From a bacterium (GTDB lineage Bacteria; Armatimonadota; Zipacnadia; Zipacnadales; Zipacnadaceae), in the NCBI GenBank assembly GCA_030603495.1, contig JAUVXR010000036.1, positions 1 through 24,854 on the forward strand: 24,854 nucleotides of DNA, given 5' to 3'. Both the position numbers and the translations under genes were made by a program. Shown one piece after another: positions 3,781 through 19,593 of this stretch. The notes under the pieces are model-generated. The model ran no database searches. It was not told where the DNA came from and worked only from the letters and a program-made list of their open reading frames with translations. The number at the start of each line of letters is the position of its first letter. Within the stretch, counting starts at the first letter, position 1.

Positions 3781-4881
3781 ATGAGTACTGGAATGCCGCG
3801 CACCGTCTGCTGGGCCGAGAGTGCAGCCGGGCCCGTGGTCCGGTTGATTGACCAGACTCTCCTGCCGGGTGAATTGGTCCTTAAGGATTGCTGTGAGCTT
3901 GAGGAGGTCTGCGAGGCCATCCGCGTCCTGCGCGTGCGCGGCGCTCCGGCTATTGGCTGCGCGGCAGCGCTGGGGGTGGCCCTGGCAGTGCACCGTAGTG
4001 CGGCACAGACGACTGCCGACCTATTGGCGGTGGTCGAGGACGCGTCGCAGGAGCTCGCCACCACCCGGCCTACTGCGGTGAACCTCTTCTGGGCACTCGA
4101 GCGGATGCAGCAGGTGGCCGAAGGCTCTGGCACCTTATCCCCGGATGAATTCTGCGTCGCCTTGCTCCGTGAAGCCCAGCACATCGTTGCTGACGACGTG
4201 GCGCGCTGCCACCGTATCGGGCACTACGGCGCGGAGCTTATCCCAGATAATGCGGATATCCTCACTCACTGTAACGCTGGCGCGCTGGCCACGGCGGGGT
4301 ATGGCACGGCGCTGGGCGTCATCCGCGCAGCGCACGAGCAGGGCAAGCAGATTCACGTCTGGGTGGATGAAACGCGCCCGCTCCTGCAGGGTGCCCGACT
4401 CACGGCCTGGGAGCTTCAGCGGGAAGGGATTCCCTATACGCTAATCTGCGATAGCGCTGCTGCGTCGCTAATGCAGCGGGGGAGGGTGGACTGCGTAGTC
4501 ATTGGAGCGGATCGCATCGCCGGTAACGGGGACGTTGCCAACAAAATCGGCACTTACTCGGTAGCAGTGGCCGCCGCCCGCCATCAGGTGCCGTTCTATG
4601 TGGCTGCGCCGTTTTCGACGGTGGATTTCGACCTGGCTTGCGGTGATGAGATCCCCATCGAAGAGCGCTACCCCGAAGAAGTCGCCTATGTCGCCAATCG
4701 GCTGACCGAACCAATCTGCCCGGCCCCCGTCAATATCTACAACCCGGCCTTCGACGTGACGCCAGCCGAGCTGATCACTGGGATAATCACCGAAGCCGGC
4801 GTCGCCTATCAGCCTTTAGCCTCGTCGTTGTCCGAGCTGGACTCCGAGACTTCCTCGTCCTCGTCGGGCTCATCGTCCTGA
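3781..4881 (+). CDS. mtnA: Methylthioribose-1-phosphate isomerase (methionine salvage)
   Basis: The enzyme converts 5-methylthioribose-1-phosphate to methylthioribulose-1-phosphate in the methionine salvage pathway. The 366-residue protein has RVRGAPAIG (52-59), THCNAGALAT with catalytic Cys164, DETRPLLQGARLT (196-208) and IGADRIAGNGDVANKIGTY with Asp244. These match the Cys/Asp pair known from Bacillus MtnA. GGAG at 3771-3774 lies six bases before the ATG, and the gene sits just after carB, so co-transcription is likely. The family core ends near residue 345. The last 24 residues are a Ser/Glu-rich tail (LSELDSETSSSSSGSSS) encoded entirely where the gene overlaps the convergent gene at 4809. 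The tail is probably a by-product of reading antisense through that gene's acidic C-terminus. No other salvage gene is in the window. The related aIF2B-like ribose-1,5-bisphosphate isomerases are the alternative; the length and motifs favour MtnA. Confidence 0.93.
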   Translation: MSTGMPRTVCWAESAAGPVVRLIDQTLLPGELVLKDCCELEEVCEAIRVLRVRGAPAIGCAAALGVALAVHRSAAQTTADLLAVVEDASQELATTRPTAVNLFWALERMQQVAEGSGTLSPDEFCVALLREAQHIVADDVARCHRIGHYGAELIPDNADILTHCNAGALATAGYGTALGVIRAAHEQGKQIHVWVDETRPLLQGARLTAWELQREGIPYTLICDSAAASLMQRGRVDCVVIGADRIAGNGDVANKIGTYSVAVAAARHQVPFYVAAPFSTVDFDLACGDEIPIEERYPEEVAYVANRLTEPICPAPVNIYNPAFDVTPAELITGIITEAGVAYQPLASSLSELDSETSSSSSGSSS

Positions 4882-7800
4882 TCGTCTGCGGTCTTCTTAG
4901 CCTCTTCGATCTCCTCTTCGGATACCCACGGGAGGCGGACCTTCTCCTCGATGCTGTTGCCCGCTTCGTCCCACGCCCGGAGCACTATTTGCTTAGCATC
5001 CTTCGACAGGTCGTGCGCGTTTATGGTAAAGCGCTCAATCAGCTCATCGTAGGCACCGTCGGCAGGCTGGGCTGCCCACCATTGCTCGCTGTCGTCGAGA
5101 TGCCACGACACTGCCGCAACCGCCGTCTGGTTATCACGCGCCAGGCCCACAATCGTCGCTGTTGCCTCGTCCTGGTCACCGCGCACCGGCTGCAGACTAA
5201 GTACCGGCGTATCATTATCAATGCGCACCCCGCTGACGATCTTGGTGACCTCCCGCGCGTGACCAGGATTACTGGGCTCGTCGCTGACTGTTACCTTCAG
5301 TTCGTAAGTCCCCGCTCGCTGCTCGGTCGTATCTAGCTCGTACGAGTTGTCCTGGAGGGGGCCAGCGATCTTCTCCCACTCCGGCGCGGCGGTGCGGCGC
5401 AGGTATATAGTGGCAGCCGTGGTATCATCCTCGGGCTCCTCCACTGACCACTCGATCTTTGCCTGGTTACGCAGCGCTGCGCCGCCGGCGGGCTTCTTGA
5501 TCACCAGTTCGGGCTCTTGGTTGGCGGGCAAGTAGCTGATCTTTATCGCCCTCAGCTCCGGACCGTCGCCAGTGCTGTCTCGGGGCACCTTCGCCCGATA
5601 TTGCAGATAGCGCGCGGTGGGGACATCAATCCGCTCACCGCTGCGGTACTCCCGAGACCAGGCGCTCCAACTGCCCTCTTCATGGTCGGATGTATTCCCG
5701 GAGCGGCACTGAAAGGCAATTCCTTCGCTGTCAGCGCCTTCTGTCCACCACTGAATCTGGCGCCATCGGCTGACGCGCTCGGCGTCCAATACCGGCGAAG
5801 TGTAGATGGCAGCCTCAACCGGCGATGCGTCAGCCGCCAGCACTCGCCCCGGGTTGGCTCCAGCGGCCGACAGGCTGCCCTTCTCGTCCGCGGCCAGACA
5901 CAGGATCGCGCCGTCATCCTTGCTCCGATAGACTACAGTGTGGTGCTCATCGGAAGTCAGCTCCAGGATCGTACTGCGCGAGTCCGTCCCAGCATAGACG
6001 CAGCCATTGGCCGCCAGCAGTGTCAGCACCCTGGCCTTCGTGTCCTCGTAAACGGTCTCTACTACGCCCCCTGGGTCTATGCGATAGATCTGGCCTTTGC
6101 TACTGTTCCCGGCAGTCGCGGCGTACAGATACCCGTTGTTGACCACCACAGCCGCCACGTCATTCTCCTCGCTGTCGAGTATGCCCCGTATCTGCCGCTG
6201 TGTGCCGATCTGGTAGACGGCGCCCGGCGCTGACGTGCCGGCGTAGACAACTCCCTCCCACACCGTCAGGCACAAGACATGCGACTGGGGAAGATCGGCG
6301 TACACCGAGTAGCCGCCGGCCCTGTCTACCAGGTAGACCACACCATAGGGCCCGGTGGCGACGAACAGGCCCCCGTCGGGCGCCGCTTCGATGTCCCATA
6401 CATAGTCGGCGGGCAACTCACAGAACACCTCTCCCTTATCCTTCCCTGAGATAGTAAAGATCTTGCCGGCTCCGCAGGTGCCCGCGTAGAGCTTCGCGTC
6501 GGAGCCAGCCAGTAGTGCGCTAACCGCCGTCTCTTCGGTATCGAAGTACGGCTCGAAATCCTTGCCGTCGTACCGGAAAATGCGCCCGCTGGTTGCCTCC
6601 CCGACGTATACGTTCCCGGTAGCGTCCGCCGCTATGCTCCACAGTATTTCCCCTGGTGCGGTTGCAGAAACTCGCCATTCCGGTATGCCTAGTAGCACCC
6701 CATCATCACGGATGCCGATGCCCGTCATCTCGCCTTTCTCGTAATCTTTGGGAGCGTCATGTAGCCAGGACGAGGGCTTGCGTATTACCGCGCCCTCGAC
6801 CTCCTCTTCTTCTTCCTCCTCTTCTTCGTCGGGTAGTTCGGAGTCCGTCTCGGCATCTTGTTCTTCCAGCAGCTTCTTGATGCGGTCAGGCATCGGGATG
6901 TCGGGCTGAAGCGCTTTCATCTCCGCCAGGAACCGGGGTGCGACCACACGATCCGGGGCAAAGGCCGACCGTGCCCACCACAGCCTCTCCGGCGCCTGCT
7001 GGCCGGCGCTGATCTCGTCCCACTCGTTACCTTCCATGGCCGCAGCCCCTGCCATCAAGCCACCGGCGCGCAGCAGCCCCTTAGTCGGCACTCTGATCTC
7101 CATCCGCTCGCCCCTACGATCTTCCGTGGGCAGTACCAGCGTGGCCATCCCGTCGAGCACGTAGGGGGTATCGTTCACTTCGGCTAGCTCGGAATAGCCC
7201 AGGGCGATATCCGTGCGCTTGGCCGCCGACAGGATCCCCAGCGCCCAGTTCGGCATATTGTTCAACCGCCTCGGCCCGATGCGCAGCCCCACCGTTGGTA
7301 TTGCCGCCACCGTCACGAGCTGCGTATTCTGCTCCATCGTTTCATACTGCTCGATAACCGTCTCGAGGCTATTGAAGTCCGGCGTCAGCAACCGCATAGC
7401 CGAGCGCATCATCCAGCCGTATGCCCCGCTACCAACTGCCACGCGCAGATACCCCTTGGGCAGTTCCAGGGGCATATGCAAGCGGACTTCCCGATCGGTA
7501 AGCTCCTCGCCAGTGGGGCGGACCAGCACGTGCAAGATGACGTCTTCGCCCGCCCGGGCCACCTGCTGCTCGGTCCACACCCGCTCGATAGTCGCCGTCC
7601 GGTTCTCCCTTTTCAGCTTGGCCGTTAGCTTCACGCTGCTTACGCGTTGAGGCTTGAACCGGTTCTTCTCCAGCAGCGTCATCGCCGACAGCATATCCCA
7701 CAGCGTCTCGTACGTCGGATCCTCGCTGTAGGCAAAGGTATTCGTGCGGCTTACGGACGAGCCTTCATTGCCCTCGACGGTAAATGTGACTGCTACCGTC

Positions 7801-8939
7801 CCTTCGTCATTGGCGTCATAGCCGGCGTATAGCGCGTCGAATGCGCAAGAGAGGATAAGCGAGCTGCGCAGGGCCGGATCGTTGCAGACCTGTAGCCGGT
7901 AGCTGCGCGAGATATTGCTGTCGCGGTCGTGAATCTCAAACTCCGCCGGAATCATCTCGGGCACCTCACCTACCCGCCCCGCCACCGACCACGCGCTGTC
8001 CTGGGTCAGTGTCCCTACTGGCGTTATGCCCGAGGCCATCCGAAACGAGAAGTCCAGACTCGAAACCACATGGTGAACCCACGCTGTGGTCAGCGGCAAC
8101 TGCGTCTGGCCCAGCTTCATGGCCGGGTGCCCGAAAGCCAGGATCCGATCCCCGCCACGGTACGTCACTGTCCCTACCGAGCTAATGTCAAAATCTCCGG
8201 AGACCAACTGTATTCCCACCGCCGCGCCCGGCTTCAGCTCCGTTTCCACCTTCCGGCGCAGATTGCCCGGCCCGGGCATTGCCTGAAGGCCGCGCCTTTC
8301 GAAGAAATCAGCCAGTCGCTCTACGGTCCTCGCCGAGAAGCCGGCACAGAACATCGGCGTCATCACCGGCTGCAGCGCCAGGGTATGATCATCCACAAAG
8401 GGCTTTTCGTAGCCAGCGCCGACGACCTCCACGCCGGTTATGCGCCGGCCAGCTATCGTGATCTGGGAGTCGGGCGTAGGACTTGCTGTCTCTACGGCCT
8501 CCGCGCCGTCCTCTTTATCAAGAGCCTCCAGCATGTTTTCGATCGGAGTTACCCCAGCGATAGGCTGCTTGCCGAAGGGCCAGGCGAAAGCGACTGCTCC
8601 GACCAGCCGCCCGCCAATGTAGACCGGACTGCCGCTCATCCCGCCGAATATGCCCAGCTCCTCCTCTACTATCGGCCCGTCAACTATCCGCACCAGAATA
8701 GCGTCAGCGCCCTGACGAAACTTGGGCAGCACCCCCACGACCTCCACATTGAATTCAGTAATCTCCACGCCGGAAAAGACCGTCCGGCAGGTGCCCTTCA
8801 TGCCGGCTCGGATCCTGCTCACCGACATCATCGTGGCGCTGTCAAATAACGGGGATGCGGCCCGGCAGGGCGCCGCGAGTAGTACCACCAGCGCTGCGAC
8901 AGCCAAGTACACAAATAATACGGGCAAACTCAACCGCAT
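4809..8939 (-). CDS. Exported multidomain protein: SpoIVB-like S55 peptidase region, seven-repeat beta-propeller, Ig-like domains
   Basis: The 1376-residue protein starts with a signal peptide (about 1-27: RL, a hydrophobic run, then PCRAASP), so it is exported. Residues 35-345 resemble the SpoIVB S55 peptidase family. GIFGGMSGSPVYIGG (96-110) carries the candidate nucleophile Ser and RILAFGHP (265-272) the candidate His. Their order is the reverse of SpoIVB. Residues 345-690 are a conserved-looking region of unknown function. An acidic linker (700-714, nine Glu in a row) leads into seven repeats at about 764, 805, 847, 887, 927, 970 and 1011, each with a VYAGT/LFVATG-like strand, which fits a seven-bladed propeller. 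A lectin- or discoidin-like stretch (1045-1138) and two Ig/Fn3-like domains (1144-1240, 1245-1338) follow, then an acidic tail. ATG 8939 has AAAGGAAGG about 11 bases upstream. The substrate is unknown. It stands alone, convergent with mtnA and divergent from the GntR operon. Confidence 0.82.
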   Translation of the reverse strand: MRLSLPVLFVYLAVAALVVLLAAPCRAASPLFDSATMMSVSRIRAGMKGTCRTVFSGVEITEFNVEVVGVLPKFRQGADAILVRIVDGPIVEEELGIFGGMSGSPVYIGGRLVGAVAFAWPFGKQPIAGVTPIENMLEALDKEDGAEAVETASPTPDSQITIAGRRITGVEVVGAGYEKPFVDDHTLALQPVMTPMFCAGFSARTVERLADFFERRGLQAMPGPGNLRRKVETELKPGAAVGIQLVSGDFDISSVGTVTYRGGDRILAFGHPAMKLGQTQLPLTTAWVHHVVSSLDFSFRMASGITPVGTLTQDSAWSVAGRVGEVPEMIPAEFEIHDRDSNISRSYRLQVCNDPALRSSLILSCAFDALYAGYDANDEGTVAVTFTVEGNEGSSVSRTNTFAYSEDPTYETLWDMLSAMTLLEKNRFKPQRVSSVKLTAKLKRENRTATIERVWTEQQVARAGEDVILHVLVRPTGEELTDREVRLHMPLELPKGYLRVAVGSGAYGWMMRSAMRLLTPDFNSLETVIEQYETMEQNTQLVTVAAIPTVGLRIGPRRLNNMPNWALGILSAAKRTDIALGYSELAEVNDTPYVLDGMATLVLPTEDRRGERMEIRVPTKGLLRAGGLMAGAAAMEGNEWDEISAGQQAPERLWWARSAFAPDRVVAPRFLAEMKALQPDIPMPDRIKKLLEEQDAETDSELPDEEEEEEEEEVEGAVIRKPSSWLHDAPKDYEKGEMTGIGIRDDGVLLGIPEWRVSATAPGEILWSIAADATGNVYVGEATSGRIFRYDGKDFEPYFDTEETAVSALLAGSDAKLYAGTCGAGKIFTISGKDKGEVFCELPADYVWDIEAAPDGGLFVATGPYGVVYLVDRAGGYSVYADLPQSHVLCLTVWEGVVYAGTSAPGAVYQIGTQRQIRGILDSEENDVAAVVVNNGYLYAATAGNSSKGQIYRIDPGGVVETVYEDTKARVLTLLAANGCVYAGTDSRSTILELTSDEHHTVVYRSKDDGAILCLAADEKGSLSAAGANPGRVLAADASPVEAAIYTSPVLDAERVSRWRQIQWWTEGADSEGIAFQCRSGNTSDHEEGSWSAWSREYRSGERIDVPTARYLQYRAKVPRDSTGDGPELRAIKISYLPANQEPELVIKKPAGGAALRNQAKIEWSVEEPEDDTTAATIYLRRTAAPEWEKIAGPLQDNSYELDTTEQRAGTYELKVTVSDEPSNPGHAREVTKIVSGVRIDNDTPVLSLQPVRGDQDEATATIVGLARDNQTAVAAVSWHLDDSEQWWAAQPADGAYDELIERFTINAHDLSKDAKQIVLRAWDEAGNSIEEKVRLPWVSEEEIEEAKKTADDQDDEPDEDEEVSESSSDNDEAKG

Positions 8940-14565: not shown

Positions 14566-16038
14566 CTATTCGTCGCTGGGGCGCAGGAGCGGAAAGAAGA
14601 TCACTTCCCGCAAATTCGGCTGGTCAGTAAGCAGCATCACTAGCCGATCAATGCCCAGCCCCAGGCCGCCCGTGGGCGGCATGCCGTATTCTAGGGCGCG
14701 GATGAAGTCCTCGTCGAGCGGATGTGCTTCCTCGTCCCCGGCTGCACGAGCTGCCGCCTGCGCTTCGAATCGTTCTCGCTGGTCCAGCGGATCGTTAAGC
14801 TCGCTGAAGGCATTGCCGATCTCTATGCCACCGATAAACGGCTCGAACCGCTCCGTAAGCTGCGCATTATCTGGCTTGCGCTTGGCCAGCGGGGAGATCT
14901 CCACCGGATAATCGGTGATGAAGGTAGGCTGAATGAGCTGCGGCTGCACAAAGCGGTCCGCGAGCTTATCTATTACGTACCCCAGCGACTGCCCCTCAAG
15001 AGTCTGGCGTTCGAGTCCGGCTGCTACAGCCTGTTCACGGGCTGCCTCCGCACTTTCTATGCCACTGAGATCCACGCCGCCATACTCCCTGATCGCCTCT
15101 AGCAGTGAAATGCGCTGCCACGGCGGAGTCAGGTTAATCTCATGGCCTTGGTAGGTGAACTTCAGTGCGCCGTGCACCGCCTGGCACATTGCGCCTACTA
15201 GCCCCTCCGTCAACGTCATCATATCCTCGTAGTCGGCGTAGGCCTCGTAGACCTCGAGGAGGGTGTACTCGGGGTTATGCCGTGTATCTATGCCCTCGTT
15301 GCGGAAGACGCGCCCCATCTCGAAGACTCGCTCGTAACCACCGACAATCAGGCGCTTGAGGTACAGTTCCGGGGCAATGCGCATATAAAGCTGCATCTGA
15401 AGGGTGTTGTGATAGGTGGTAAACGGCCGCGCTGCCGCCCCGCCGTAAAGCGGCTGGAGCATGGGGGTTTCTACTTCCAAGAAATCCCGCTGGCTCAGAT
15501 AGTCGCGCGCGGCTTGAATGATGCGGCTGCGTGCCCGGAACAGCTCGCGGACCTGCTCGTTCGCCAGTAGGTCAACGTAGCGTTGGCGATAGCGGAGCTC
15601 CTGGTCCTGGAGCCCGTGGAACTTCTCAGGCAGCGGACGCAGCGCCTTCGCCAGCAGCAGAAACGCGGCGCAGCGTACCGTCACTTCGTCACTGCGTGTC
15701 TGAAATAGCTCCCCTTCGACTACAATTATGTCGCCCAGGTCTAGATCCTGGAAGTGTGTGTAGTCGTCCTCGCCCAGCACGTCGAGCTGCGCATAAATCT
15801 GCACAGTGGCACTGGCATCCTGCAGGTCAGCAAACGTGGACTTCCCGTGCTCGCGCAGTGCTACTATCCGCCCGGCCACGGATACCACCTGGCCTTCGAG
15901 CTGGGCAAAGTCGCTGTGAAGCTGCGCAATAGAATGCGTACGCGCGCAGCTATGATGCCCGAAGGGGTCCTGGCCTTGCTCTTTCAGTTGATTCAGTTTT
16001 GCCAGTCTACGTTGATACTCGTCCACAGGGTGAGACAT
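14566..16038 (-). CDS. lysS: Lysyl-tRNA synthetase, class II
   Basis: The 490-residue protein has the usual size for bacterial LysS and charges tRNA-Lys in the cytoplasm. An N-terminal OB-fold anticodon-binding domain (about 50-130: VVSVAGRIVALREHGKSTFADL) is followed by the class II catalytic core. This has motif 1 around FLEVETPMLQPLYGGAAARPF (186-206), motif 2 FRNEGIDTRHNPEYT (245-259) and motif 3 GGLGLGIDRLVML (457-469). ATG 16038 has AGAGGA six bases upstream. The gene follows the acyl-ACP-reductase-like gene by 34 bases and precedes the UbiA-family gene by 54, all on one strand. Identity is secure. Confidence 0.97.
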   Translation of the reverse strand: MSHPVDEYQRRLAKLNQLKEQGQDPFGHHSCARTHSIAQLHSDFAQLEGQVVSVAGRIVALREHGKSTFADLQDASATVQIYAQLDVLGEDDYTHFQDLDLGDIIVVEGELFQTRSDEVTVRCAAFLLLAKALRPLPEKFHGLQDQELRYRQRYVDLLANEQVRELFRARSRIIQAARDYLSQRDFLEVETPMLQPLYGGAAARPFTTYHNTLQMQLYMRIAPELYLKRLIVGGYERVFEMGRVFRNEGIDTRHNPEYTLLEVYEAYADYEDMMTLTEGLVGAMCQAVHGALKFTYQGHEINLTPPWQRISLLEAIREYGGVDLSGIESAEAAREQAVAAGLERQTLEGQSLGYVIDKLADRFVQPQLIQPTFITDYPVEISPLAKRKPDNAQLTERFEPFIGGIEIGNAFSELNDPLDQRERFEAQAAARAAGDEEAHPLDEDFIRALEYGMPPTGGLGLGIDRLVMLLTDQPNLREVIFFPLLRPSDE

Positions 16039-16072: not shown

Positions 16073-17143
16073 CTACGGGCCGCGACCAGCCAGTTGCCGT
16101 ACCCGAGCGATCTGTTCCTCGGTGACCACGCGCTCGAATGACCGAAAACCGGCCAAGCGGAAGCCGTGTTTGTCGCCAAGCTGCTCGATTTCGCGGACCT
16201 TGTCCACGTCTAGTGCTCTGCCCAGCGTAAAACTCTCGCAGCGGTTCTCCAGGGCCAGTATCATCGTCTCAGCCATACAGGCATAAGCTGTCCGCGGCGG
16301 AAAACCAAAGTCGACATTGAACTCGACCTCGCCGGGGACCTCGACGGCACCGCCTTCGATCACCAATACATCTTCGCGCTCCTCGGCCACACGCCATGAT
16401 ACATCGCGTGGCCGCGCTACGTCACAGATCACCGCTCCCGGCTTGAGCATCTCCGGCTCAACAATCGCCTCCAGCGCTGAGGTCACTGTCACCACCAGGT
16501 CGGCCTGGAGCAACGCGATAGCTGCATCTGTTGTGGTGCTTACCGCGGCGCGTTGCTGGGCGAGTTCGGCGGCGACCTCGGCTGTGGGGTCGCCGGGCCG
16601 TCCCACCAGGGCCAGCGAGTCCACCTCACTCGCCAGTAGATGTGCGCAGATTCGCCCGATTGAACCACTCGCACCGAGCACCACTGCGTGGGCCTGCCGT
16701 GGATCAATTCCTACCTGCGCCGCTGCTTGCAGAACCCCGCGGACAGCGGTTGCTACGGTGTAGCTATTGCCCGTGGTCACCGCAATGTCCAGATTCTCGG
16801 CGACAGTTATCCCCGCATCGCCGACCACCGCCGTGAACGCCCCCAGTCCAACTATACCGGCGCCCAGTTCCTCGGCCAGGCGGCCCGCCTCAACGATCTT
16901 TGCTACGGCCCGCTTCGGGTTGGCATTAGTGAGCTGGCGGGCGGTCAGCGGGCAGATCACAAACCAGCCGCTGGTCTCCGCACCAGCCGTCGTGCGAATT
17001 CCAACAATTTCGCTGGCCATCTTGGCAGGTGTCTTGGCCATTGCCCATTCTATCACTCGTTCCGGCAACCATGCCGTCCACGGATACCTGCGGGCGAGGT
17101 CGCGCACCGTGAGCGGATGAAGTATGAAGGCGAATCTAGTCAT
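16073..17143 (-). CDS. Homologue of cyanobacterial long-chain acyl-ACP reductase (aldehyde-forming), function here uncertain
   Basis: The 356-residue protein matches, from memory, the layout of Synechococcus AAR (Orf1594). It has GAGIVGLGAFTAVVG (94-108), TTGNSYTVATAVRGVLQAA (123-141), a nucleotide-binding VVLGASGSIGR (154-164), VIEGGAVEVPGEVEF (261-275), and RTAYACMAETMILALENR (284-301), which carries Cys289 at the place of the catalytic Cys of AAR. SFTLGRALDVDKVREIEQLGDKHGF (304-328) then resembles the AAR C-terminus. Cyanobacterial AAR reduces fatty acyl-ACP with NADPH to fatty aldehyde. No aldehyde-deformylating oxygenase is in the window, so alkane synthesis is not implied. Automatic annotation may call such proteins shikimate dehydrogenases because of the Rossmann domain. 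It overlaps the upstream gene by eight bases; GGAGG (17155-17159) lies 11 bases before the ATG. The homology is well supported, but the substrate is inference. Confidence 0.75.
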   Translation of the reverse strand: MTRFAFILHPLTVRDLARRYPWTAWLPERVIEWAMAKTPAKMASEIVGIRTTAGAETSGWFVICPLTARQLTNANPKRAVAKIVEAGRLAEELGAGIVGLGAFTAVVGDAGITVAENLDIAVTTGNSYTVATAVRGVLQAAAQVGIDPRQAHAVVLGASGSIGRICAHLLASEVDSLALVGRPGDPTAEVAAELAQQRAAVSTTTDAAIALLQADLVVTVTSALEAIVEPEMLKPGAVICDVARPRDVSWRVAEEREDVLVIEGGAVEVPGEVEFNVDFGFPPRTAYACMAETMILALENRCESFTLGRALDVDKVREIEQLGDKHGFRLAGFRSFERVVTEEQIARVRQLAGRGP

Positions 17144-18083
17144 TGTCGGGCGTGCCTCCGACCCCTGACGATCCCTGCCCGCGATTCAATTCCCGGATAG
17201 TCGGCGCCCAGCCCATCTGCTGGGCCATCGCCAGGTACTCCGCAGCGCTGGCTTCCCCGGCGTCCCTACCCATCAGGCACAAGAAAACGCCCTCCATCAC
17301 GTTCGTAGCGAAGCTGCGGCCCTCGAGCACCGGCGTTGTCGTTATCAGCAAACGCACACCCCGACTCGTGAGAATCTCGACATCCTGTTCCGTGGTCGTG
17401 TTGGTAATGATTATCTTCCCGTCGAGCCGGTGGGGGAGATGTCGTCGGATTATCGGAAAATCACCCGCTATCACCGCCGCCCACTGGTAGTAACGCCCGT
17501 ACTTGGGCCGGATCTCCTCCTGCTTGCTACCAGTCGGGTAAAGCCACTTGAAAGGCAGTCGTCCCAGAATCGGCAGTAGCAAGCGCGCCAGTAGATCCAC
17601 CGAGCGCGTGCTCCGTAGCGCTATCGGGACTCCCAGGTTGAACATCAAATCGCCCAGGACATAGTTGGACGAGAGTGCGCAGATCGCCTCGGTCATCCCG
17701 AATCGGTCGGTGGAACAGGGAATCAGGATGTTGGCCTGCGTAAAGTCCACCACGCCCTGTTCTTGCAGGATTCCTATTGTCTCCCGTTCCAGCGAGTTCT
17801 TCAGCCCGGCGCCATCTACTACCGGCGTCTGCTGGATACGCTGTGCGAGTCGTTGAATATCGCGAAACGGATAAAAGCGGCCCGCCCAGTGCAGCCCTAT
17901 ATTGGCCCCCCCGATGCACAGACAATCCACCTTGCCATCGTTCTGTTCCAATAATAGCCCAAAGCGCCGCAAGTTGCCGTCCGTTCCACGGCGTTCCAGC
18001 AGGAACCGCTCGCCGAGAATCTCTTTTTCAACGCTCTTGTCGCGCGTTGACGATCCCAGGCTGATGCTGAGTATATGCTTCAT
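17136..18083 (-). CDS. Conserved protein of unknown function (family often labelled 'quinate 5-dehydrogenase')
   Basis: This is a 315-residue cytoplasmic protein with no signal peptide or membrane helix. Recognisable segments are SISLGSSTRDKSVE (6-19), FLLERRGTDGNL (27-38), VVDGAGLKNSLER (88-100), PCSTDRFGMTEAI (122-134), LPFKWLYPTGSKQ (176-188), KYGRYYQWAAVIAGDF (194-209) and TTTPVLEGRSFATNVMEG (248-265). I recall similar proteins, mostly from anaerobic Firmicutes, under the name quinate 5-dehydrogenase. No classical GxGxxG dinucleotide site is seen, so that name looks unreliable. It starts inside the coaX stop (ATGA overlap) and overlaps the acyl-ACP-reductase-like gene by eight bases, so it probably works with that protein. 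No ribosome binding site precedes its ATG, which suggests translational coupling. I do not assign a function. The C-terminal 15 residues are Gly/Ser-rich and look disordered. Confidence 0.7.
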   Translation of the reverse strand: MKHILSISLGSSTRDKSVEKEILGERFLLERRGTDGNLRRFGLLLEQNDGKVDCLCIGGANIGLHWAGRFYPFRDIQRLAQRIQQTPVVDGAGLKNSLERETIGILQEQGVVDFTQANILIPCSTDRFGMTEAICALSSNYVLGDLMFNLGVPIALRSTRSVDLLARLLLPILGRLPFKWLYPTGSKQEEIRPKYGRYYQWAAVIAGDFPIIRRHLPHRLDGKIIITNTTTEQDVEILTSRGVRLLITTTPVLEGRSFATNVMEGVFLCLMGRDAGEASAAEYLAMAQQMGWAPTIRELNRGQGSSGVGGTPDND

Positions 18084-18868
18084 GGTGTTGTTGTTTCATA
18101 CGCGGATCGCAGCCCGTCCAGTGTCAGCATTTCGTCTACTGTGATCGCCACTTCGCAATGCGCCACAACCAGCTCCGCATCGCCGCCGGTGGCAACTACC
18201 GGTGCCGTGCGGCCCACCGTTTGCCGCATGATCTCAACCAGTCGGTCAACACTGCCCGCGATGCTTGCCAGTATCCCCAGCGTCAAGCCCTCAGCGGTAC
18301 TGCGCCCCGCCGGTGTGCACTCACGCCCGAGCAGTTGCATCGCCTCTTCCAGTCCCGTGGCGAGGTGAGGCACTGCCTTGAGCAACCCCGTCCGTATGAC
18401 GGGCAGTCCCGGGGCAATCGCCCCCGCGGTCAGGACGCCCTTGGCTGTAATGGCATCGCACGTCACGCAGCTCCCGAAGTCCACCACCACGCAGGGCTTG
18501 CCAACCCGCTCAATCGCTGCCAGAGCATTCAATAACCGGTCAACGCCAATCTGCGCCGGATCGTAGTAGTCGGTTGAGACCTCAACCGCGAAATCTTCCC
18601 CGGCAACTACGCTTCCGGTTCCCAGCCAACGTGCTGCGAACTTTTCGACTGCACTGCGCGCGTTCGGCGAACTGAGGCACAGGACCGCCTGGTTGCAGTC
18701 ATCGCTATCCAGGCCAGCCTCCTCCAAGCGGCTCAGCAGTGTGATTTCCCAATCACCACGCTCGAGCCGGCCTGCCGGTATGCGGCCCACCGCCGCCCAC
18801 CGGCCCTCGCGCCAGGCTCCCGAGTGCACTGTGCAATTCCCGACATCCGCGTACCAGGTCCAACTCAT
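18080..18868 (-). CDS. coaX: Type III pantothenate kinase
   Basis: The enzyme phosphorylates pantothenate, the first step of coenzyme A synthesis. From ATG 18868 the protein has 262 residues, normal for CoaX. Motifs of the ASKHA fold are present: WYADVGNCTVHSG (5-17, Asp8), IGVDRLLNALAA (107-118, Asp110 and Arg111), VVVDFGSCVTCDAIT (127-141, Asp130) and GGDAEL near the end. The usual DVGNT and DFGTATT here read DVGNCT and DFGSCVT, which are mild variants. An in-frame extension to 18964 would add 32 unrelated residues inside the upstream gene. ATG 18868 overlaps the upstream stop as ATGA, and the same overlap joins it to the next gene, so translation is coupled on both sides. Its product feeds the phosphopantetheine supply of ACP, a possible link to the acyl-ACP-reductase-like gene two positions downstream. 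Confidence 0.93.
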   Translation of the reverse strand: MSWTWYADVGNCTVHSGAWREGRWAAVGRIPAGRLERGDWEITLLSRLEEAGLDSDDCNQAVLCLSSPNARSAVEKFAARWLGTGSVVAGEDFAVEVSTDYYDPAQIGVDRLLNALAAIERVGKPCVVVDFGSCVTCDAITAKGVLTAGAIAPGLPVIRTGLLKAVPHLATGLEEAMQLLGRECTPAGRSTAEGLTLGILASIAGSVDRLVEIMRQTVGRTAPVVATGGDAELVVAHCEVAITVDEMLTLDGLRSAYETTTP

Positions 18869-19593
18869 GGCAGTTGTATTACGCGACTCTCGTAGCGATT
18901 GTTGCCCTGGAGCTTCGAGGCCCTGACTAGCACTACTTCTGTGGCGTAGGGCGCAGGCCAGCACAGCAGACTACCAGAGATCTGTTCGATCCGGGCCGTA
19001 GCGCTATGACTGTGCCCGCCCAGTACCACGTCAATTTCTGAGAACAGCTCGGCAAGATGACGATCGTATCTCTTCCCCAGGTGGCTGAGCGCCACCAGCC
19101 AGTCCACCTGGTCACGCAGCGTGGCCACCGCTCCCTCCACTGCCCCCTGCCACGACACGAAGCGCATATCTGAGAACAATTCCGCCCGGCTGCCGGCCCC
19201 AATCATCGTCGGAGTCAGCCCGAATATGCCCACGCGGCCACCCTCGGGCGCTGTCACGATAGTCCACGCCTGGATGTGGCCAAAATCGCCCCGCAGCGGG
19301 CGCAGGTTGGCGCTGAGCACGGCAAACCTCGCCGCCCGTGTCTTGTGAATCATGCCCCGCTTACGAAAGAAATACTCCCGGTTGCCTACCGCCATCGCTG
19401 CGTAGCCCACCTCGTTCATCAGCTCAATAATTGGCTCGCGCCGCCGCAGAGTTACATTCCCGGCGCCTACGGCGTCTCCTGAATCAAGCAGCAGAGCCTT
19501 GTGCTCACGTCGCAGTTCAGTGAGTCGCCGGGCCGCCGCCTGACTGAGACGGTTATGCATATCCGCAGTATGAAGCAGCGTCAGCGAAGCCAT
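18865..19593 (-). CDS. Calcineurin-like metallophosphatase (5'-nucleotidase type) with an altered GNH motif
   Basis: The 242-residue protein contains only the catalytic domain. Metal-site motifs are HTADMHNR (8-15, Asp11 and His13), LLDSGDAVG (35-43, Asp40), GNREYF (70-75), ALSHLGKRYDRHL (168-180, His171) and LGGHSHSATA (191-200, His194 and His196). The family normally has GNH(D/E), whose His takes part in catalysis; here it is Arg72. There is no signal peptide and no C-terminal substrate-binding domain of the UshA kind, so it is probably cytoplasmic. It follows kdsD by 31 bases and is joined to coaX by an ATGA overlap. The substrate is unknown. A role as the phosphatase missing from the Kdo pathway is possible only as speculation. 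Confidence 0.8.
   Translation of the reverse strand: MASLTLLHTADMHNRLSQAAARRLTELRREHKALLLDSGDAVGAGNVTLRRREPIIELMNEVGYAAMAVGNREYFFRKRGMIHKTRAARFAVLSANLRPLRGDFGHIQAWTIVTAPEGGRVGIFGLTPTMIGAGSRAELFSDMRFVSWQGAVEGAVATLRDQVDWLVALSHLGKRYDRHLAELFSEIDVVLGGHSHSATARIEQISGSLLCWPAPYATEVVLVRASKLQGNNRYESRVIQLP

Follow-up and report, generated by a model that had tools for sequence, protein, structure and literature searches.

The two-gene locus

The window, which is the whole 24,854-nucleotide stretch of DNA that was analysed, carries on its minus strand two overlapping genes, here named R and P, in a neighbourhood that includes coaX and lysS. The features relevant to this analysis are as follows.

16073 to 17143, minus strand: R, a stand-alone acyl-thioester (acyl-ACP/CoA) reductase homologue of 356 aa (NCBIfam and PDB matches, phylum counts)
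17136 to 18083, minus strand: P, a conserved 315-aa partner without a known family (no database match; phylum counts; alignment)
17136 to 17143, minus strand: 8-base overlap of the P stop and the R start, ATGACTAG (sequence)
16655 to 16675, minus strand: NADP(H)-binding motif GASGSIG of R, residues 157-163 (sequence, alignment)
16277 to 16279, minus strand: codon of the putative catalytic Cys289 of R, in the context AYACMAE (aligned to Cys294 of S. elongatus AAR)
18080 to 18964, minus strand: coaX, type III pantothenate kinase, context only (Pan_kinase, 7e-31; ancestral neighbour)
14566 to 16038, minus strand: lysS, lysyl-tRNA synthetase, context only (profile match; part of an older gene order described below)

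When the sequence was re-read, the positions given in the earlier note, the 8-base overlap and the start of P within the ATGA of the coaX stop (18080-18083) were all found as claimed.

Two other minus-strand reading frames of the window were also recorded. One, at 4809-8939, encodes 1376 aa with a weak match to SpoIVB peptidase S55 near its N-terminus, and its long remainder has no Pfam match. The other, at 18865-19593, encodes a short UshA/SoxB-like metallophosphatase of 242 aa that overlaps the long frame of coaX and adjoins KDO synthesis genes.

R as a member of the AAR/PigE reductase superfamily

By its full-length profile, R is a member of the superfamily that includes the acyl-ACP reductase AAR and PigE. 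The NCBIfam PigE model matches residues 45-350 (219 bits, 1.2e-64) and the AAR model TIGR04058 matches nearly the whole length of R (116.3 bits, 1.7e-33), both scores lying below the curated cut-offs of 850 and 449.7 bits, respectively. In a phmmer search of PDB, R matched 4ppm (E 1.3e-39) and 6jzq (E 2e-24). The same program aligns Cys289 of R with Cys294 of Synechococcus AAR, the acyl-carrying residue of that enzyme. Across 48 aligned R sequences, including those fused to the acyltransferase PlsY, this cysteine is at least 97% conserved. The GxxGxxG motif is conserved in R as well as in the PlsY fusions, which have it as GANGVVG. The full-length PigE/AAR match, the cysteine and the GASGSIG site thus bear out the view, taken at first from the window alone, that R is a reductase of the AAR kind.

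The closest characterised relatives of R are PigE, KecF and PtTamH. PigE and KecF are thought to convert ACP thioesters to aldehydes and then to amines, and PtTamH has been reported to carry out both ACP thioester reduction and transamination of aliphatic aldehydes (PMC10829540).

P as an undescribed family

No match was found for P in Pfam, NCBIfam, PHROGs or PDB, and an alignment of 27 members likewise had no match in Pfam, NCBIfam or PDB. Together with its near-universal presence in the phylum, this agrees with the earlier note, in which P had been regarded as a conserved protein of unknown function; judged from these searches, P is an undescribed family. Asp, Gly, Lys, Glu and Arg are invariant at many positions of the alignment, a pattern that would suit an enzyme. 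The idea that P is a degenerate paralogue of R was ruled out, there being no profile similarity between the two. An AlphaFold2 model of P built from four sequences was not usable (pLDDT 49.7, pTM 0.36). A scan of genome contigs returned matches from Zipacnadia relatives only, and none was found in plasmids, phages or viral contigs. Moorella and its relatives probably carry a P-like gene.

In the earlier note, P had also been placed under the doubtful label quinate 5-dehydrogenase. The same label occurs in Deinococcus and Thermus on a core family, deino9.00587, described as "annotated as quinate 5-dehydrogenase", uncharacterised and expected to be important (PMC9425974). The label therefore has a counterpart in the literature, and the likeness to P is one of label and description. 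The family so labelled is probably P, and the dehydrogenase label on it is probably misleading.

Conservation and pairing of P and R

The window comes from a Candidatus Zipacnadia genome, a member of the Armatimonadota. The distribution of the two genes was examined in 151 genomes spread over this phylum, 115 of which were classed as good. P is present in 143 of the 151 genomes (113 of the good ones) and R in 142 (112 of the good ones), nearly always as one copy each. Among the 139 genomes having both, there are 80, belonging to 23 of 35 families, where R follows P on the same strand and no more than 400 bases away; in many of the others the two lie on separate contigs or at separate places. 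Since both genes are single-copy, near-universal and adjacent in so many genomes, pairing by chance can be excluded. The co-occurrence in other genomes, on which the earlier note had made its reading depend, is therefore very strong, and the P-R pair stands as a conserved unit. In a few genomes genes are inserted between P and R, and these are mutually unrelated.

The usual neighbours of the pair across the phylum are coaX, dusB and lysS, and no further recurrent partner was found among 84 neighbours. The older gene order is coaX-dusB-P-R-lysS, from which dusB has been lost in the window, and P therefore touches coaX there. Of 28 sampled loci with both genes, 11 keep P and R together with none of coaX, dusB and lysS at the locus, which indicates that the pair is the unit. 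The coupling to coaX that had been read from the window is thus a local outcome of the dusB loss and incidental; a functional link to coaX is ruled out by the older order with dusB in between and by the many genomes with P-R and no coaX.

Two kinds of exception were found. In two sister genomes of the window genus (G104 and G077), only a 34-codon remnant of P precedes R, between coaX and R (loci L048 and L050), and a divergent copy of P lies elsewhere in the genome, which reads as a (xenologous) displacement of P and not as its loss. In addition, one genome that is 96% complete (G010) has P and an ElbD-like protein, with R, PlsX and PlsY all absent; the tie of P to R is therefore not absolute.

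Link of R to phospholipid acylation

PlsY is the acyl-phosphate:glycerol-3-phosphate acyltransferase. In six genomes from three families, PlsY and an R homologue (33-36% identical) are joined in one protein of about 570-620 aa, PlsY making up the N-terminal and the R homologue the C-terminal half. These fusions are located as follows.

L037, L039, L040, L041, L042 and G006:C318 (L038): PlsY fused to an AAR/PigE-type reductase domain

The fusion is the sole PlsY of these six genomes, and R is therefore tied to phospholipid acylation. P is retained in five of the six, the sixth genome being 69% complete. No such fusion of PlsY to an AAR/PigE-type reductase was found in the literature searched. 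A strict dependence of R on PlsY is ruled out by one family (f25) that keeps R and P and has no PlsY. Collectively, these findings connect R with the lipid acyl pool, though its tie to PlsY is not strict.

Divergent copies of P were also seen close to a second PlsY. In G083, the neighbours of such a copy include a second PlsY, a sensor kinase and an MGDG-synthase-like glycosyltransferase, and in G023 and G104 P and a second PlsY are similarly close. Islands with a divergent P near a second PlsY were recorded at L109:4692-10476, L110 and L049; the first also contains a HisKA_3 sensor kinase, an MGDG-synthase-like glycosyltransferase and, between these two, a reading frame with no profile match.

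Phospholipids of the bacteria that carry the pair

According to a meeting report, all phospholipids of Chthonomonas calidirosea are of the phosphatidylglyceroylalkylamine type (PMC3367263), this being the one species of Armatimonadota for which the alkylamine lipid is documented; in its genome P and R are adjacent. The same class, the N-glyceroyl-alkylamine phospholipids, is made by Thermus and Deinococcus (PMC3398001), where these are major membrane lipids, and N-glyceroyl alkylamines have been reported from Moorella and other Bacillota (PMC13274423). The Thermus enzymes for the third chain and the head group of this lipid are stated to be unidentified (PMC9636437). R-like (AAR-like) matches were obtained in the Thermus composti and Deinobacterium controls; the match between gene and lipid across phyla is thus drawn from the literature and from R-like matches that lie under the AAR cut-off, the search set for P having been within the phylum.

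The distribution of phosphatidylethanolamine (PE) synthesis was also considered. Phosphatidylserine decarboxylase (Psd) is encoded in only nine of the 151 genomes, and PE is therefore probably no general lipid of the phylum; such rarity is as expected if another phospholipid dominates. Psd was likewise not found in the Thermus and Deinobacterium controls.

Possible role of P and R

We propose, with moderate confidence, that R supplies the fatty aldehyde from which the alkylamine chain of the N-glyceroyl-alkylamine (phosphatidylglyceroylalkylamine) phospholipids is formed, with P taking part in the same pathway. The proposal is based on the family and residues of R, its aminotransferase-fused relatives, the near-universal and often adjacent occurrence of both genes, the PlsY fusion, the divergent P copy close to a second PlsY, the lack of an aldehyde-deformylating oxygenase, the rarity of PE synthesis, the C. 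calidirosea lipid together with the adjacent P and R of that species, and the lipid class shared by Thermus, Deinococcus and Bacillota. P and R are the best candidates found here for alkylamine-lipid genes. The earlier note had thought of ether lipids, waxes or aldehyde signalling; a lipid-linked aldehyde system is retained from that suggestion, but the evidence points specifically to the N-glyceroyl-alkylamine chain.

In the proposed mechanism, R would be an NADPH-dependent acyl-ACP/acyl-CoA reductase acting beside PlsX and PlsY and drawing part of the membrane-lipid acyl pool. Judging from its family and its residues, R could take the acyl group from acyl-ACP (or from acyl-CoA or acyl-phosphate) onto Cys289, and reduction of the acyl-Cys289 by NADPH would then release the fatty aldehyde. 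The aldehyde would not proceed to an alkane; by analogy with the relatives of R, an aminotransferase encoded elsewhere may convert it to a long-chain alkylamine, and no aminotransferase was found among the recurrent neighbours of P-R. This alkylamine would become the third chain of the N-glyceroyl-alkylamine phospholipids, which would be the main phospholipid type in these bacteria. P, on the strength of its association with R, might be an enzyme or a scaffold that takes the aldehyde or the amine toward the glyceroyl amide. We thus infer the substrate, the aminotransferase and the end product, as well as everything assigned to P. More tentatively, P might be the founding member of a new enzyme family and, together with R, produce either the alkylamine or the glyceroyl-alkylamine amide found in the phosphatidylglyceroylalkylamine lipids.

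Four other explanations were weighed. In one, which we regard as improbable, R supplies fatty aldehyde or alcohol for ether lipids, whether these are alkyl or vinyl ether glycerolipids, with P as the ether-forming or a subsequent enzyme. The PlsY fusion, which links R to glycerolipid assembly, would fit such a pathway, as would the ElbD-like protein with a FAR domain in G010, the genome devoid of R, PlsX and PlsY, ElbD being the protein that makes ether lipids in Myxococcus. However, ElbD-like proteins occur in only five of the 151 genomes (G010, at L117:4472-8881, with FAR, AMP-binding, carrier and acyltransferase domains, and G021, G025, G039 and G050), and at least three of the five keep R or the PlsY-R fusion (G021, G025 and G039), while G050 is 61% complete. 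The three good genomes with an ElbD-like protein are all among the four good genomes that have no PlsY (Fisher p 1.6e-5), a distribution which suggests that the ElbD-like protein replaces PlsY as an enzyme of the ether-lipid type. Moreover, no report of ether lipids in Armatimonadota was found in the literature, the Chthonomonas phospholipids are all of the alkylamine type, and the lipids listed for Thermus and Deinococcus are ester/amine lipids (PMC3398001, PMC9636437).

We consider it similarly doubtful that R and P control the pool of acyl-ACP and acyl-phosphate, by overflow to aldehyde and recycling to fatty acid or alcohol, with no structural lipid as the product. R and PlsY would share one such pool and are fused in some genomes, and a divergent copy of P lies near a sensor kinase. 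However, the single-copy, near-universal conservation across the phylum suits core biosynthesis better than this, and no recurrent aldehyde dehydrogenase or alcohol dehydrogenase was seen among the neighbours of P-R as would-be partner.

Far less probable still is a role for R as a shikimate/quinate or other Rossmann dehydrogenase, with P as a metabolic enzyme that has no connection with lipids. The Pfam Shikimate_DH model does match the Rossmann part of R (46 bits, residues 147-255), and the label quinate 5-dehydrogenase is attached to the family that is probably P. However, the N-terminal substrate-binding domain of shikimate dehydrogenases has no Pfam match in R, which has instead the full-length PigE/AAR match and the aligned cysteine, and P has neither a dehydrogenase match nor profile similarity to R. 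Judged by profile score, R thus falls outside the shikimate dehydrogenases, a placement within them having been named at the outset as contrary to the reductase reading.

A hydrocarbon pathway of the cyanobacterial type, with AAR followed by an aldehyde-deformylating oxygenase, is hardly credible although R is related to AAR and shares its catalytic Cys, because R scores far under the AAR cut-off and the oxygenase (ADO, PF11266), already remarked as missing from the window, is encoded in none of the 151 genomes and was found in the Synechococcus control, so that the alkane route is excluded.

If R and P do provide the alkylamine chain, a lipid class shared by Armatimonadota, Deinococcus-Thermus and Bacillota would thereby have its first genes, and an orphan core family whose dehydrogenase label is probably misleading would gain a function.

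Comparison with known systems

R resembles cyanobacterial AAR (TIGR04058; PDB codes: 6JZQ and 6JZU) in its full-length alignment, in the correspondence of C289 with C294, in the NADP(H) site and in the domain order. In contrast to that enzyme, R lies far under the AAR cut-off, belongs to a phylum without ADO, is paired with P and is fused to PlsY in six genomes. With PigE, KecF and PtTamH (COG5322 domain; PDB code: 4PPM), R shares the same reductase domain, PigE giving the top profile score; in those proteins, however, the reductase is fused to a class III aminotransferase, whereas R stands alone with no aminotransferase domain. Moreover, in contrast to those fusions, R is a core gene that does not belong to a secondary-metabolite cluster. 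ElbD of Myxococcus xanthus is comparable to the R-PlsY fusion in that an acyl reductase is joined with a glycerolipid acyltransferase, but its reductase is of the FAR (NAD_binding_4/Sterile) type, which is another Pfam family than that of R, and ElbD-like proteins are rare in the phylum (5/151). For P, the nearest counterpart by description, as opposed to sequence, is deino9.00587, which is likewise a core and slowly evolving family, belongs to no CDD family and bears the same odd label.
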